From Peptococcaceae bacterium BICA1-7 (GTDB taxonomy: Bacteria; Bacillota; Desulfotomaculia; Desulfotomaculales; Desulfocucumaceae), in assembly GCA_000802095.1 (NCBI GenBank), contig JUEB01000001.1, positions 62,001 to 126,000 of the forward strand: a stretch of 64,000 nucleotides of DNA. Direction: 5' to 3'. The notes beneath the pieces are model-generated. The model was given only the letters and a program-made list of their open reading frames with translations. It ran no database searches and was not told the origin of the DNA. Made by a program: the position numbers and the translations under genes. Positions 45,275 to 53,411 of the stretch are shown piece after piece (positions within the stretch are counted from its first letter, which is position 1; each line of letters opens with the position of its first letter).

Positions 45275-45490
45275 GGTCAGGAGACTGGAGACTGCTGATA
45301 CTGAATATCTTATAGGTCGGGAGACTGCTTGCGGGTAATTCTTCCCGTCAGGAGACAGGATTTTTGCAAGTCCTTCTTTAAGGCCGGTTTAAAGACTGAC
45401 CTCTAGTTTCTCCCCCGTCTCCCGACCCGAGGTATTACCTCCTGGCAGTCTCCTGACCCGGGGATTGCTCTTGAAAGCAGTCTCCCACCG
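45275..45490. repeat. Repeat family B, copy 3
   Basis: GGTCAGGAGACTGGAGACTG begins the element, GTCGGGAGACTGCTTGCGGG follows, and CCCGTCTCCCGACCCGAGGT with CAGTCTCCTGACCCGGGG forms the opposite arm; GAGGTATTACCTCC occurs near the right end. It fills the 257-bp gap between rsmE and prmA inside an otherwise tight gene cluster. Confidence 0.75.
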
Positions 45491-45496
45491 GAGGTA

Positions 45497-46429
45497 TTAC
45501 TCATATGCCTTTTCTGCCAAAAAGGCGGTCCATTCCCCTTCTCTGAGCACCTTCTTTATGACCAGCCCGTGAGAAGTCAGGGCGTTTTCCAACTCCCCGG
45601 ACCTGCCGGATATTATTCCGGAGGTTATGAAGGCTCCCCCTGTTTTCAGCAGGGAGACGGCCGCCGGAATTAGAGTAAGAATGACATCGGCCACTATATT
45701 GGCCACTATTATATCGGCCCCGGTGTCTATACCCTCCAGAAGGTTGGCCTCCATTACGGTTATGGCTTCTGAAAGCCCATTTATGGAAACATTCTCCCGG
45801 GCTGTCCGCACTGCCCCGGCATCGGTGTCCACCGCCAGGGCCCCGGCGGCGCCCAGCTTCACTGCTGTAATGGCCAGTATGCCTGATCCGGCGCCCACAT
45901 CAATAACGTATTCCCCGCCACTGACAACATCCTCCAGAAGGCGCATACACATGGAGGTGCTGGAGTGGGTGCCGCAGCCAAAGGCCATTCCCGGGTCCAT
46001 CTCAATCACCAGGAAATCTTCACCGGCCTCTACCTTCTCCCAGGTGGGCTTAACCATAAGGCGACTCCCCACCCTGAAGGGGTGGTAGTATTCCCGCCAG
46101 CGGTTCATCCAGTCTTCATCCTCCACTTCCCTCAAGGTCACCCCCTGAGGGTAGGACCGGCTAATGCCGCCCAGGGTGTCCAGAAGACCGGAAAGAGTTT
46201 TGTCAAGACTGCTATCTGCCTGAAGGTAACCCTTTACCAGAGGGGGCGCCTCCGGGTCCACCCCGGATATGTCCATGGCTACAGTTTCCCGGCTGCCCCC
46301 GCTGATCACCTCATAAATTAGGGCGGGGTCCTCTATGACAACCCCGCCTGTACCAAAGCTTTCAAATATTTCACTCACCGCCTCCAGGTCTTCACGGCTC
46401 ACGGTGAGGCTTATTTCCATCCATTTCAA
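45497..46429 (-). CDS. prmA: Ribosomal protein L11 methyltransferase PrmA
   Basis: A 310-aa SAM-dependent enzyme that methylates L11. N-terminal substrate-recognition part (MEISLTVSREDLEAVSEIFESFGTGG), then the catalytic domain with MDPGMAFGCGTHSSTSMCM, VIDVGAGSGILAI (SAM site) and NIVADVI. The TTG at 46429 follows GGGAACGGGA. It lies 39 bp after dnaJ, in its usual Firmicute place. Confidence 0.95.
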   Translation of the reverse strand: MKWMEISLTVSREDLEAVSEIFESFGTGGVVIEDPALIYEVISGGSRETVAMDISGVDPEAPPLVKGYLQADSSLDKTLSGLLDTLGGISRSYPQGVTLREVEDEDWMNRWREYYHPFRVGSRLMVKPTWEKVEAGEDFLVIEMDPGMAFGCGTHSSTSMCMRLLEDVVSGGEYVIDVGAGSGILAITAVKLGAAGALAVDTDAGAVRTARENVSINGLSEAITVMEANLLEGIDTGADIIVANIVADVILTLIPAAVSLLKTGGAFITSGIISGRSGELENALTSHGLVIKKVLREGEWTAFLAEKAYE

Positions 46430-46468: not shown

Positions 46469-47596
46469 CTAGCCCATAAAGGCGTCCTTTACCTTTCCGA
46501 AGAAGCCCTTTTCCACCCCCGCAGGGTTTTCATTGCCCAGTTTGGCAAATTCCTGGATCAGCTCTTTCTGCTTTTCGGTGAGCCTGGTGGGGGTAACCAC
46601 CTTGACCACAACGTGCTGATCGCCCCGCCCGTGGCCTCCCAGGTGCGGGACGCCCTTTCCCCTCATCCTGAACACTGACCCGGTCTGGGTGCCCTCGGGG
46701 ATTTTAAAGGTTATTTTGCCGTCCAGGGTATCCACTTCCACCTCATCACCCAGGGCTGCCTGGGCAAAGCTCAGAGGATATTCCAACACCACATCGTTGC
46801 CATCCCGGCGGAAATATTTGTGGGGCTTTACATAGATATATACATAAAGATCTCCTCTGGGGCCGCCCCTCAGTCCAGACTCTCCCTCACCGGAAACCCT
46901 AAGCCTGGTTCCATTGTCAACCCCGGCGGGTATCTTTACGTGTATGCTTCTTGTTTTTCTAACCTGACCGGCGCCGTGGCAGGTGGGGCACGGTTTTTCT
47001 ATAACCTTGCCGGCCCCCCGGCAGCGGTCACAGGCTCTGGACTGTACAATCCTCCCAAAGGGAGTGCTCTGGGCAAACTGGACCTGCCCTGCACCATTGC
47101 AGGCTGAACAGGTCTGGGCTTTTGTGCCGGGGGCCGCCCCGGTTCCCCCACAGGTCCCGCACCCCTCATTTCTGGGCACCTTAATGTCCTTCTCCAGGCC
47201 AAAGGCCGCCTCCTCAAAGGCTATCTCCATATCCACCCTGAGGTCGGATCCCTTTTCAGGGCCGCGCCTGCTCCGGCCGCCCCCGCCTCCAAAGAACATG
47301 TCAAATATATCGCCCAGCCCTCCGAAATCTCCTCCTCCGAAGCCTCCAAAACCCCCAAAGCCCTGGCCGTCGGCAGCGGCATGGCCGAAGCGGTCATAGC
47401 CGGCCCTTTTTTCCGGGTCGCTTAAAACCTCATAGGCCTCGGCAGCCTCCTTAAACTTCTCCTCGGAGTTTTCCTTGTTTTCGGGGTTGGCATCGGGGTG
47501 GTACTGGCGTGCCAGCTTTCTGTACGCTTTTTTTATTTCATCTGCAGAAGCCTCCCTGGAAACACCCAGCACTTCGTAATAATCCCGTTTGGACAT
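46469..47596 (-). CDS. dnaJ: Co-chaperone DnaJ (Hsp40)
   Basis: A 375-aa type I Hsp40. J domain (1-70) with the HPD motif in [14 protein letters not shown], a G/F-rich region ([18 protein letters not shown]), four zinc motifs [24 protein letters not shown] and CPTCHGAG, then the two beta substrate-binding domains. It delivers substrates to DnaK and triggers its ATPase. Transcribed after dnaK across a 193-bp gap that contains a long hairpin. Confidence 0.97.
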
Positions 47597-47789: not shown

Positions 47790-49640
47790 TTATTTATCCT
47801 CTTTAGCTTTATCTTCTTTAACCTCGTAGTCGGCATCAACCACATTGTCGTCTTTGTCACCGGCGCCTTCATCGGAGCTGCCGGTGGGACCTCCCCCGGC
47901 CTGCTGCTCATTCTGCTGATACAGCTGGGAGGTAAGCTCATAGAGAGGTTGGGTAACAGCCTCGGTCTTACTTTTAATCAGCTCCAGGTCACTGCCCTTT
48001 AAGGCCTCTTTCAGCTCTTCTACAGCCTTGTTCACACTCTCGGCCTTGGCGCTCTCCACCTTGTCTCCCAGTTCCTTGAGAGTCTTTTCCACCTGATAGA
48101 TGAGGCTGTCGGCCTGGTTGCGCACCTCTACCTCTTCTTTGCGCTTCTTGTCAGCCTCGGCCTGAACCTCGGCCTCCTTGACCATTTTTTCTATATCCTC
48201 ATCCGAGAGACCGCCCCCGCCGCTGATGGTTATGCTCTGTGCCTTCTGAGTGCCCAGATCCTTGGCGGAAACATTGACTATCCCGTTAACATCCAGATCA
48301 AATTTGACCTCTATCTGAGGCACCCCTCTGGGGGCCGGCGGTATTCCGGTCAGGGTGAAGCGTCCCAGAGACTTGTTGTCGGCCGCCATGGCCCGCTCGC
48401 CCTGCAGCACATTTATCTCCACAGTGGTCTGGCCGTCGGCGGCAGTGGAGAATATCTGGCTCTTGGAAGTGGGAATGGTGGTATTCCTTTCAATAAGCTT
48501 TGTAGACACACCACCCAGGGTTTCAATGCCCAGCGAAAGCGGGGTAACATCCAGCAGCAGCACATCCTTAACCTCTCCGGCCAGAACTCCGGCCTGGATG
48601 GCCGCCCCTATGGCCACGCACTCGTCAGGATTGATGCCTTTGTGGGGCTCCTTGCCCAGAAACTTACGAATGGAATCCTGAACAGCGGGGATCCTGGTGG
48701 AGCCCCCCACCATCAGTATCCTGTGAATATCCTTCGGCTCAAGGCCTGAATCGCTCAGAGCCTGCCTGGTGGGACCCATTGTTTTCTCCACCAGGTCGGC
48801 GGTCAGCTCGTCAAATTTGGCCCTGGTCAGATTAAGGTCCAGGTGTTTGGGACCGTTGGCATCAGCAGTCACAAAGGGCAGATTTATATTGGTGCTGGCC
48901 ACACCGCTCAGCTCTATCTTGGCCTTCTCGGCAGCCTCCTTGAGGCGCTGCATGGCCATGCGGTCATTGGCCAGATCAATGCCGGAGTCTTTCTTAAATT
49001 CGGCTACCATCCAGTCAATAACCCTCTCGTCAAAATCGTCCCCGCCCAGGCGGTTATTCCCGCTGGTGGCCTTTACCTCAAAAACGCCTTCCCCCAGCTC
49101 CAGTATGGAGACGTCAAAGGTGCCACCCCCCAGGTCGAAAACCAGAATGGTCTGATCCTCTCCCTTCTCCAGACCGTAAGCCAGGGCGGCGGCGGTGGGC
49201 TCATTGATGATGCGCAGCACCTCCAGCCCGGCTATTTTTCCGGCGTCCTTGGTAGCCTGCCTCTGGGCATCGGTAAAATAGGCCGGCACGGTAATCACTG
49301 CCTGCTCCACCTTCTGTCCCAGATAGCCCTCTGCGTCAGCTTTAAGCTTCTGCAGTATCATGGCCGAAATTTCCTGGGGTGAAAAATTCTTATCGTCTAT
49401 TTCCACCTTGTAGGTGGTTCCCATATGCCTCTTTATTGAGCTTATGGTGCGGTCAGGGTTGCTTACCGCCTGCCTTTTGGCCACCTGGCCCACCAGGCGC
49501 TCCCCGGTCTTGGAAAAGCCAACCACTGAGGGTGTTGTGCGGCCTCCCTCGGCGTTTGGAATGACTACCGCCTCCCCGCCTTCCATTACAGCCACGCACG
49601 AGTTGGTGGTGCCCAGATCTATGCCTATTACCTTGCCCAT
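47790..49640 (-). CDS. dnaK: Molecular chaperone DnaK (Hsp70)
   Basis: A 616-aa Hsp70. The ATPase domain has [33 protein letters not shown] and [12 protein letters not shown]; the substrate-binding domain begins [17 protein letters not shown], and the C-terminal tail is charged. The length is normal for Firmicutes. It acts with DnaJ and GrpE, and probably beside the group III chaperonin encoded two genes upstream. The 177-bp gap to grpE holds repeat C3, so a secondary promoter there is possible. Confidence 0.98.
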
Positions 49641-49817: not shown

Positions 49818-50438
49818 TCAGGTTGCCACCTTGACCATGGCCGCACGAATGGTTTTTCCCCTTAAGGAATACCCCTTCCTTAACTCCTCGATAACGGTGT
49901 TTTCCGGGTGCTCCCCTCCCTCTTCCCTCATAACGGCCTCGTGTATTTCGGGGTTAAACTGGGCCCCCACAGCTGGAACGGCCTCCAGTCCTTCTGAGTT
50001 AAGCACGTCCCTTATCTGCCTGCTAATCATTTCAATGCCCTCGTATACCTTATCCACATCATCATGCCTTAGGGACAGCGCTCTTTCCAGATTGTCCAGC
50101 ACCGGCAGCAGCGCCGTTATTATCTGCTCGCCGGCGTATTTCACCAGTTCCTCTCTTTCCCTGGCTACACGCCTGCGATAATTATCAAAGTCAGCCTGCA
50201 TCCTGGCCAGACGGTTAAAATAATCCTCCGCCTTTGCCCTTTCCTGATCCAGTTGCCTGGCCAGACTGTCTCCGTCAGCCTCCCCGGGGCTTTCCCCACT
50301 CCCGGGCTGATCAGTCACGGCCCGGTCCTGGCAGGCTTCCACGGCGTCCTCTTCCGGGGCGTCCATGGAACCATCCCTTTCAGAGGCTACTTTTGTTTCC
50401 CCGCCCGGAATGTCTTCCATTTCCCGCTCATGCTGCAT
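49818..50438 (-). CDS. grpE: Nucleotide exchange factor GrpE
   Basis: A 206-aa protein with an acidic disordered N terminus (about 1-60), a long coiled coil (RAKAEDYFNRLARMQADFDNYRRRVARERE) and the C-terminal beta domain (EGLEAVPAVGAQFNPEIHEAV, TVIEELRKGYSLRGKTIRAAMVKV). It releases ADP from DnaK. The ATG at 50438 has GAGGTGA 8 bases before it; a GTG at 50450 lies in that ribosome site. It follows the chaperonin gene by about 20 bp. Confidence 0.96.
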   Translation of the reverse strand: MQHEREMEDIPGGETKVASERDGSMDAPEEDAVEACQDRAVTDQPGSGESPGEADGDSLARQLDQERAKAEDYFNRLARMQADFDNYRRRVAREREELVKYAGEQIITALLPVLDNLERALSLRHDDVDKVYEGIEMISRQIRDVLNSEGLEAVPAVGAQFNPEIHEAVMREEGGEHPENTVIEELRKGYSLRGKTIRAAMVKVAT

Positions 50439-50459
50439 ATCCGTCCTCACCTCGCCCTT

Positions 50460-52019
50460 TTATTTATCCAGCTCTCTTATGTCTTTTTCCTCACGCTTTT
50501 TTATAATGGTGTCGATCCTCAGTATGGCCTCGGCAATCTCCCCGGCTGCCTTTAAAGCATAGGTCTTAACCAGGGCCGGATCCACCACCCCGGCTACAAA
50601 CATATCAATTATTTCGCCGGTATCACAGTCCACAGCCAGAGCGTCATTGCCTCTTTCCGACTGGGCTGCGGTAACATCCCCCAGTTTCTCCAGTGGATTA
50701 AAGCCGGCATTGCCCGCAATCTGGGCCATTGGCCTCTTTAGTGCCTCCACCACGCAGTCCACCCCATAGACAGCCATGCCCCGCATATCCTTACGGATTT
50801 TTTCCACATCCCCGGCTGCCGCCAGCTCTACAGAGCCTCCGCCGGGCACCACCCCGCCCTTTATTACCGCCTGGACGGCGGCTGCGGCGTCCTTGGCGAT
50901 GCGCTCCCTTTCGCCAACCACCTCAGCAGTGGCCGCCCCCACCAGCACGGTGGCCATTGACTTGCCGCCTCCGTCCTGTATCCATACCTGCTCGAGTTTT
51001 TCGTCATTATATACCCTGCCTGCCCTGCCCAGGTATGCCGCCAGCTGGCCCGGGTCCTTTTTTAAGCCATTTCTCTTAATCATCCTGGCCCCGGTATGAT
51101 CTGCGGCCTTGCGCAGATCAGTGGTTAAAACCCTCTGCACCACCATTGCCCCTGCGTCGGTGAGCATTTCCTCGGCGGCTTCGTTAACCCCCCGGTCCAC
51201 CAGCACCAGGCCTACCTTCATGTCCACCAGCTTCTGTATGTTTTGGCGGAACTGGGCCTGCAGCTCCATGTAGCGGGCAAAGCCGGCCTCGGTGGACAGT
51301 GCCTCATCCTCTATCTCTTCCGGCTCAAGGGAGTCGTCAATCACCAGCACCATAACTCCATCCAGTTCTAACGGCATCTGGCGGTTCATTCTCTCTTTGC
51401 CTATGATTACACCTCTAAAAACCTGGTTATCCGCGCCCTCTTCGGCCACCACGGTATCTGCCAGCCTGAAGGACCGGTCCAGCAGCTTTTCACTGCCCAC
51501 CATGCCGGCGGCACTTACCACCAGGTCGGCTATGTCCTCATAGCCCCTGCCGGCGATCATGGCCACCTGCCGTATTACCGGGTCTGAAACATGGTCAACC
51601 ATCCGGGCCCGGCGGCCTATGGCCTCTACTCCTGCCCTGACACCGGCCCTCAGTCCCTCTATAACCCTCGATACAGGAACCCCCCTGGCAACCTGCTCCA
51701 CCCCGGCGCCCACCAGGGCCCCGGCCAGCACCGTGGCAGTGGTGGTTCCATCACCTATCTCCTCCTGCTGGGCCCTGGCGATGTTGATCATCATTCTGGC
51801 TGCAGGGTGATTGGCCTCCATCATGGTCAGTATGGTGACCCCGTCGTTGGTTATAACCACCTCACCGAACTTATCCACCAGCATGGTGTCAAGCCCCTTG
51901 GGCCCAAGGGTGCCCTCCACCGCCGAGGCGATGGCCCTTATGGCATTGGCGTTGGATACCAGGGCAGCCATTTTTTCGTTTACCTCGGCCCCACCGCTGG
52001 CCTGCTGTTTAAGACTCAT
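50460..52019 (-). CDS. Group III chaperonin (thermosome/TCP-1-like) in the hsp70 operon
   Basis: A 519-aa chaperonin that is clearly of the archaeal/eukaryotic type, not GroEL. Diagnostic segments are GTLGPKGLDTMLVD, ITNDGVTIL (nucleotide contact), IGDGTTTATVLAGALV (catalytic loop with the GDGTT motif) and a C-terminal GGVVPGGGSVELA. The built-in lid of group II chaperonins would replace GroES. The gene lies between hrcA (7 bp) and grpE (about 20 bp), exactly where Carboxydothermus and some related Clostridia carry such genes, named group III chaperonins. CIRCE control is therefore expected. No GroEL or GroES is in this window. Confidence 0.95.
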   Translation of the reverse strand: MSLKQQASGGAEVNEKMAALVSNANAIRAIASAVEGTLGPKGLDTMLVDKFGEVVITNDGVTILTMMEANHPAARMMINIARAQQEEIGDGTTTATVLAGALVGAGVEQVARGVPVSRVIEGLRAGVRAGVEAIGRRARMVDHVSDPVIRQVAMIAGRGYEDIADLVVSAAGMVGSEKLLDRSFRLADTVVAEEGADNQVFRGVIIGKERMNRQMPLELDGVMVLVIDDSLEPEEIEDEALSTEAGFARYMELQAQFRQNIQKLVDMKVGLVLVDRGVNEAAEEMLTDAGAMVVQRVLTTDLRKAADHTGARMIKRNGLKKDPGQLAAYLGRAGRVYNDEKLEQVWIQDGGGKSMATVLVGAATAEVVGERERIAKDAAAAVQAVIKGGVVPGGGSVELAAAGDVEKIRKDMRGMAVYGVDCVVEALKRPMAQIAGNAGFNPLEKLGDVTAAQSERGNDALAVDCDTGEIIDMFVAGVVDPALVKTYALKAAGEIAEAILRIDTIIKKREEKDIRELDK

Positions 52020-52026
52020 ATTTAGG

Positions 52027-53070
52027 TTATCTCCATCCCTTAAACATTTTTTCCAGAGTATCGGAAAGGTTAAGGGTCATGTGCTCTACCACACTGACCA
52101 CCCAGGCGTAGTCCATCCTGGTGGGCCCCAGCACCCCTATCTTTCCTATAGGCTGTCCGTCCAGATGATAGGTGGCCACAACCACGCTGCAGTCTTTTAC
52201 CTCTTCCCTGTTCAGCTCACTGCCTATGCGGACAGTAACGCCCCCTTCCTTATAGTCCCTCTCCAGAAGGTTCCTAAGGAGGTTTTCCTGATCAAGGAGG
52301 CTCAGAAGTGTTTTTACTTTTTCTATATTATGGAATTCCGGCTGGTTTAGTATATTGAAAACCCCGCCCAGATATATCTTATCTTCCTTTTCCATGGACA
52401 GACCCTCCTCCAGGAGGTGTACCGCCAGATCAAGTATGTTTTTATGCTTGGACAGCTCAAAGTATATCTCTTTGATCAGTCCCATTTTTATCTTATCGAT
52501 GGTCAGTCCCTGCAGCCTGGCGTTAAAAACCCCGGAGATAGTATCCAGGTCGGTCTGGTTTACTCCTTCAGGCACCTCTATCATATTGTGCTTTATGGCC
52601 CCGGTGCTTAGCACTACAATAACCATGGCCTGGCCCGGGTTCATAAGCACCAGCTGCATATGCTTCAGGGCGCTCATATCGGTTCTGGGGGTAATTATCA
52701 TAGAGGCGTAGTTGGTTATCTGGGACAGCAGGGAGTTGGTCTGTGCGACCACCTGCCCGACATCCTTTACCTTATTAACGTACCCCTTCCTTATAATCTC
52801 CTCTTCTTTTCTGGAAAGATCCTTTTTCTTCATTAAAAAGTCCACATAGTACCTGTATCCTTTTTGTGAGGGAACCCTTCCGGCGGAGGTGTGGGGCTGC
52901 TCAATATAGCCGAGTTCCTCCAGATCCGACATCTCGTTCCTGATGGTGGCCGGGCTGACTCCCAGATCGAATTTTCTTGCAATGGTGCGTGACCCCACCG
53001 GTTCTGCCGTGGAGATATAATCCATTATTATGGCCATGAGAACCTGCTGCTTTCGGGCATCCATTTTCAT
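52027..53070 (-). CDS. hrcA: Heat-shock repressor HrcA
   Basis: A 347-aa repressor: N-terminal winged helix (DARKQQVLMAIIMDYISTAEP, IARKFDLGVSPATIRNEMSDLEELGYIEQPHTSAGRVPSQKGYR), GAF-like central domain and C-terminal dimer part (GPTRMDYAWVVSVVEHM). It binds CIRCE until heat or unfolded protein titrates the GroE-type chaperonin that keeps it active; here the group III chaperonin might fill that role (inference). The ATG at 53070 has GGTGG upstream. Its own CIRCE site lies 21 bp ahead, so it is autoregulated. Confidence 0.97.
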   Translation of the reverse strand: MKMDARKQQVLMAIIMDYISTAEPVGSRTIARKFDLGVSPATIRNEMSDLEELGYIEQPHTSAGRVPSQKGYRYYVDFLMKKKDLSRKEEEIIRKGYVNKVKDVGQVVAQTNSLLSQITNYASMIITPRTDMSALKHMQLVLMNPGQAMVIVVLSTGAIKHNMIEVPEGVNQTDLDTISGVFNARLQGLTIDKIKMGLIKEIYFELSKHKNILDLAVHLLEEGLSMEKEDKIYLGGVFNILNQPEFHNIEKVKTLLSLLDQENLLRNLLERDYKEGGVTVRIGSELNREEVKDCSVVVATYHLDGQPIGKIGVLGPTRMDYAWVVSVVEHMTLNLSDTLEKMFKGWR

Positions 53071-53090
53071 ACAGGACCACCACCCTTTTG

Positions 53091-53117
53091 TTAGCACTCT
53101 CTTTTGTCGAGTGCTAA
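53091..53117 (-). promoter_or_regulatory. CIRCE operator of the hrcA-chaperonin-dnaK operon
   Basis: A perfect inverted repeat TTAGCACTC - 9 bases - GAGTGCTAA, exactly the consensus CIRCE, lies between the promoter at 53131-53159 and the hrcA start. HrcA should bind here. No second CIRCE was found in the window. Confidence 0.97.
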
Positions 53118-53130
53118 TTCCCATACGTAA

Positions 53131-53159
53131 AAAATAGCACCGGACAATTATTTTGTCAA
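53131..53159 (-). promoter_or_regulatory. Sigma-A promoter of the hrcA operon
   Basis: On the minus strand, TTGACA (53159-53154) and TATTTT (53136-53131) are 17 bp apart. The CIRCE element begins 13 bp after the -10 box, covering the start of transcription, the usual repressing position. Confidence 0.85.
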
Positions 53160-53232: not shown

Positions 53233-53411
53233 CCCTGTCAGGAGACAGGATACAGGAGACAGAAGTTTTTTCATGCCAAGACATGAAGTTAAACTTCCAG
53301 AGCTCTGTATAAAGCTACTAATGCCCCGCAGTAAAAAATAGTAATCGACAAATCAGGAATGCCCTGAACATTCTGTCTCCTGTCTCCTGTCTCCCGACCA
53401 GAGGTATTACC
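53233..53411. repeat. Repeat family B, copy 4
   Basis: CCCTGTCAGGAGACAGGATA and CAGGAGACAG form the left arm; the right arm (53373-53399) has three TCTCCTG-type units and ends CTCCCGACC followed by GAGGTATTACC. It separates hemW from the hrcA promoter. Confidence 0.75.

Follow-up and report, generated by a model that had tools for sequence, protein, structure and literature searches.

A predicted group III chaperonin encoded between hrcA and grpE in the hsp70 operon of Peptococcaceae bacterium BICA1-7

The hsp70 operon of Peptococcaceae bacterium BICA1-7 contains, between hrcA and grpE, a gene for a chaperonin that scores higher with thermosome profiles than with GroEL profiles. The locus raises three connected questions: to which chaperonin group the protein belongs, whether it stands in place of GroEL or beside it, and whether it acts on the repressor HrcA, which is encoded directly upstream. 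The first-pass annotation had regarded the protein as a TCP-1/thermosome-like chaperonin of group III and had asked whether HrcA is tuned by it instead of by GroEL. Here, these questions are addressed with the window, i.e., the whole stretch of 64,000 nucleotides that was analysed (contig JUEB01000001.1, positions 62,001 to 126,000), and with the genomes of relatives and of a wider phylum sample.

Anatomy of the operon

The features of the locus, all of them on the minus strand, are arranged in the order promoter, CIRCE, hrcA, chaperonin, grpE, dnaK, dnaJ and prmA (positions are those of the window):

53131..53159 (-), sigma-A-type promoter, TTGACA-N17-TATTTT with TG before the -10; consensus scan and position directly upstream of the CIRCE
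53091..53117 (-), perfect palindromic CIRCE, TTAGCACTC-N9-GAGTGCTAA; 0 mismatches, 0 expected by chance
52027..53070 (-), hrcA, heat-inducible repressor; TIGR00331, 353 bits, cut-off 197
50460..52019 (-), predicted group III (thermosome-like) chaperonin subunit, 519 aa; ORF, profiles, structure match, tree and alignment
49818..50438 (-), grpE; PRK14140, 158 bits, cut-off 137
47790..49640 (-), dnaK; ORF translation, conserved operon neighbour in the survey
46469..47596 (-), dnaJ; ORF translation with J domain and zinc-finger repeats
45497..46429 (-), prmA (ribosomal protein L11 methyltransferase), end of the conserved block; ORF translation, conserved neighbour in the survey

No other CIRCE with 3 or fewer mismatches lies in the window, and 0 are expected from shuffled sequences, which confirms the perfect CIRCE described earlier. 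The promoter and terminator scan of the window returned 5 sites against 5.8 expected by chance from shuffled sequence, and the promoter call therefore rests on position and not on score; its place just upstream of the CIRCE supports the sigma-A promoter that had been proposed. The start of hrcA is most likely the ATG at 53070 or 53064. The chaperonin ORF, which includes GTLGPKGLDTMLVD and IGDGTTTATVLAG, is separated by 7 bp from the end of hrcA at 52027 and by 21 bp from the grpE ATG at 50438, or by 9 bp if grpE starts at the GTG at 50450; the spacing of 7 and about 20 bp given in the first-pass annotation was thus accurate. With a CIRCE between the promoter and the first gene, and with hrcA inside the operon, the arrangement is that of a class I heat-shock operon. 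An Rfam scan of the whole window found no Rfam elements.

A 162-bp stretch at 53237-53398, between the hrcA promoter and hemW, is bounded by 28-nt inverted repeats (GTCAGGAGACAGGATACAGGAGACAGAA / TTCTGTCTCCTGTCTCCTGTCTCCCGAC, 93% complementary) and has 73 full or partial matches genome-wide, and a similar end is found at 45411-45439. From these sequence properties, it resembles a short dispersed element of the MITE type.

Identity of the chaperonin

Thermosome profiles gave 279-282 bits on the 519-aa protein and GroEL profiles at most 171 bits, with every score below its cut-off. The archaeal group II threshold is missed with TIGR02339 (thermosome; 282 bits vs cut-off 671) and the group I threshold with TIGR02348 (GroEL; 145 bits vs cut-off 582), and a protein that falls under all curated cut-offs is as expected for a third group. 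The best match among natural solved structures is Ch-CPN of Carboxydothermus hydrogenoformans (PDB 5x9u; 464 bits, residues 11-516). Among other structures, PDB 9rwq scores 656 bits against the window protein and 9rwp 276, although both were deposited as 'Ancestral Group II Chaperonin (ACII)'; 9rwq is probably mislabelled and would be ACIII, the ancestral group III protein of PMC12696368.

In a maximum likelihood tree of Cpn60 proteins (53 rows), GroEL is split from groups II and III with support of 100/100, and the window protein lies among group III, where it groups with the group III proteins of its genus, again at 100/100. The split between groups III and II is less clear: group III is recovered as a single clade by the quick tree (SH-aLRT 86) and by 77% of the bootstrap trees of the careful analysis, the best tree of which nests a very long group II branch inside it at 6-12% bootstrap. 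Alignment revealed that the nucleotide-sensing loop carried by the group II rows is absent from the window protein, in which AGRG occupies positions 156-159 and Arg158 is aligned to Arg155 of Ch-CPN. In the lid segment, the window protein and the other group III rows share a 3-residue deletion after EDEA relative to group II. Absence of the loop, the arginine equivalent to Ch-CPN Arg155, and a short lid have been given as the residue signatures of group III (PMC5635000). The ATP-site residues are kept (D59, GDGTTT at 89-94, and D377).

A divergent GroEL paralogue would fit the bacterial host and the Cpn60 fold common to all these proteins, but this reading has practically no probability left: the TIGR02348 score is far under its cut-off, the protein has no GGM tail and no paired groES (its neighbours are hrcA and grpE), its apical segment aligns with the lidded chaperonins, and the 100/100 branch that separates it from GroEL refutes the paralogue outright. 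The phylogeny against GroEL, group II and group III that the first-pass annotation had called for thus places the protein outside GroEL, and the proposed group III identity is borne out by the tree, the 5x9u match, the missing loop, and the CIRCE/hrcA operon. Judged by its sequence and this context, the protein belongs to the group III chaperonins. From its homology to 5x9u, and with the ATP-site residues kept, it would assemble into a double eight-membered ring, that is, a two-ring 16-mer with a built-in lid, and would refold proteins in an ATP-driven manner without GroES.

Distribution and conservation of the gene

Group III chaperonins had been described in the first-pass annotation as known from Carboxydothermus and a few related bacteria, which is too narrow, since 195 members were already counted in the literature (PMC5635000) and the gene is common in the genomes surveyed here. 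It was found in 37 of 41 relatives (a count that includes the genome of the window) and in 86 of the 249 genomes of an even phylum sample, or about a third. In the Paenibacillus thalictri family (Paenibacillaceae, Bacilli), 91 of 104 genomes carry it. The 86 genomes include two with frame-change breaks and two cut by contig ends. Among the matches listed in a scan of named genomes, most of them GroEL, there were at least three named group III loci, including those of Paenibacillus thalictri and an Armatimonadetes MAG. One genome rated 99% complete (G198) has two CIRCEs yet gave no chaperonin match, either to GroEL or to group III, and this absence is probably an assembly gap.

The position of the gene is far more constant than its presence. 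When 71 group III loci, a few of them repeating one genome, were compared with the operon proteins of the window, hrcA preceded the gene in 69 and grpE followed it in 67. Loci that depart from this order are cut by contig ends or belong to a single genome (G266; L161 / L052), where the order is CIRCE-hrcA-cpn-dnaJ with no grpE or dnaK alongside, the one uncut locus with another downstream neighbour. All 26 loci examined in the P. thalictri family have CIRCE-hrcA-cpn-grpE-dnaK with a perfect CIRCE, and wherever the contig allows a look, the group III gene stands directly behind hrcA. Group III genes have been reported to sit in the hsp70 operon with one exception (PMC5635000), and the gene of the window, in hrcA-cpn-grpE-dnaK-dnaJ, lies in the hsp70 (dnaK) operon as well.

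On a tree of HrcA and DnaK, the gene switches between present and absent at least 10 times, and 6 of these switches are forced by well-supported branches; gains and losses are indistinguishable in this count. The P. thalictri operon is placed among large-genome Bacilli, as expected for Paenibacillus. Presence has thus changed repeatedly without relocation of the gene, and its fixed position favours either an ancient hrcA-cpn-grpE order from which the gene was lost several times or an exchange in which the flanking genes served for recombination.

Several individual loci deserve mention. At L060 (genome G207), the group III gene is interrupted behind residue 42 by an insert of about 1 kb and has a frame break near residue 187, while hrcA, grpE, dnaK and the CIRCE are intact around it; the gene is thus naturally knocked out within an operon that is otherwise retained. 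At L061, on a single-contig chromosome (G055), a frame change near residue 346 divides the gene, either as a pseudogene or through a sequencing error. In P. thalictri (L079, 6007-6010), the stop codon of hrcA and the group III start codon overlap in ATGA, as would be expected for translational coupling.

Relation to GroEL and HrcA, and comparison with known systems

The genome of the window (33 contigs, 100% complete) contains one other Cpn60 gene, which encodes a GroEL (about 547 aa, GGM tail present) and lies behind groES on contig C11. A CIRCE with 0 mismatches occurs exactly twice genome-wide, in the window operon and before groES-groEL, and the next matches have 3 mismatches. With only these two CIRCEs, HrcA can control both chaperonins. 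The genome search for groEL/groES and further CIRCE sites, as advised in the first-pass annotation, therefore led to a groES-groEL operon under a second perfect CIRCE, and the group III chaperonin stands beside a normal GroEL system, which it does not appear to replace. The same holds more widely: according to counts made by reading tables, all 86 group III genomes of the phylum sample have a GroEL above the curated cut-off and at least two CIRCEs with no more than one mismatch each, and GroEL was found in 103 of the 104 P. thalictri-family genomes.

In B. subtilis and other bacteria, GroE promotes the DNA binding of HrcA in a titration model, and HrcA is a known chaperonin client (PMC6032397). 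One rival reading is that the group III protein has taken over HrcA maturation from GroEL and thereby sets repressor activity. That its gene always stands beside hrcA in two distant lineages, together with a short gap or stop-start overlap in several genomes (7 bp in the window, the overlap in P. thalictri), speaks for such a takeover; the CIRCE-controlled groES-groEL of the same genome and the co-occurrence of GroEL in 86 of 86 group III genomes speak against it. Natural losers of the gene do so as well. CIRCE-hrcA-grpE-dnaK is kept in 4 genomes of the window's order that are devoid of the gene, and likewise in 12 of 13 such genomes of the P. thalictri family; in the remaining one, a contig end cuts the operon. 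This gives 16 genomes with an uncut operon and no group III gene. Among 72 HrcA sequences (56 with and 16 without the gene), no column separates presence from absence, the best residue-frequency difference being 0.56, so an adaptation of the HrcA sequence to the gene was rejected. Because the operon is kept without the gene, no HrcA column tracks it and GroEL co-occurs, replacement of GroEL is argued against; tuning of HrcA by the group III chaperonin 'instead' of GroEL, the question raised in the first-pass annotation, is very improbable.

A weaker form, in which HrcA is acted on by GroEL as well as by the group III protein, whose level is then a second feedback input on the same repressor, is somewhat less improbable but still unlikely. 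It would agree with the shared regulon of two CIRCE operons, with the client status of HrcA elsewhere (PMC6032397), and with translation adjacent to hrcA; against it, the HrcA residues are indifferent to the presence of the gene in the 72 sequences, and coregulation with DnaK explains the operon position equally well. A further elaboration is, if anything, slightly more doubtful: the group III chaperonin might bind or refold HrcA made next to it, so that the CIRCE operons would read the combined load of two chaperonins, and this coupling might lock the gene behind hrcA through repeated loss or gain.

Very probably, the gene encodes a group III subunit that is co-transcribed with the DnaK system under HrcA/CIRCE control and adds GroES-independent folding capacity beside GroEL. 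From one sigma-A promoter, hrcA, the group III gene, grpE, dnaK and dnaJ would be co-transcribed and repressed by HrcA at the CIRCE. Heat or misfolded protein would inactivate HrcA, the DnaK system and the group III chaperonin would rise together, and groES-groEL, under its own CIRCE, would rise in parallel. HrcA most likely continues to be matured by GroEL, and the group III chaperonin would supply extra folding capacity, probably receiving clients from DnaK. A hand-over between group III chaperonin and DnaK has been proposed (PMC5635000); the window protein has no sequence feature that shows DnaK binding. Protection of E. coli against lethal heat by a group III chaperonin has been reported (Techtmann and Robb, 2010; cited by PMC5220055). 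Counting against this overall reading, several relatives without the gene keep everything else, and the gene is therefore not essential to the work of the operon.

The locus adds one more member to a described group in a known genomic context, as placement in the hsp70 operon was already published as typical of group III (PMC5635000). The comparative picture may be more useful than the protein itself. The gene is much commoner than reputed, including in the Bacilli family Paenibacillaceae, where close relatives without it in an otherwise identical operon make natural with/without pairs. These are probably mesophilic, cultivable bacteria, and they would allow tests of the role that a lidded chaperonin has alongside GroEL and of whether it affects HrcA.

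Among known systems, the closest is Ch-CPN (PDB 5x9u/5x9v; PMC5635000), which is homologous over the full length at about 48% identity, likewise lacks the nucleotide-sensing loop with the same Arg, and has a shortened lid segment. The same or a very close sequence is carried at locus L059, in the same hrcA-cpn-grpE-dnaK slot, and the only difference seen between Ch-CPN and the window protein, compared here at the sequence level, is sequence divergence. The archaeal group II thermosome (e.g., PDB 5w79, 3j1e) is the nearest outside group in the tree and, by homology, would have the lidded, GroES-independent architecture in common with the window protein; at about 30% identity, it differs in possessing the nucleotide-sensing loop, and the window protein, unlike the thermosome, sits in a bacterial operon. 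The GroEL/GroES of the same genome (L002) also belongs to the Cpn60 superfamily and also stands behind a perfect CIRCE, but it lies across the 100/100 branch, works with GroES, and has the GGM tail. The Firmicutes class I operon hrcA-grpE-dnaK-dnaJ has the same CIRCE and otherwise the same gene order, and differs from the operon of the window in having no chaperonin between hrcA and grpE.
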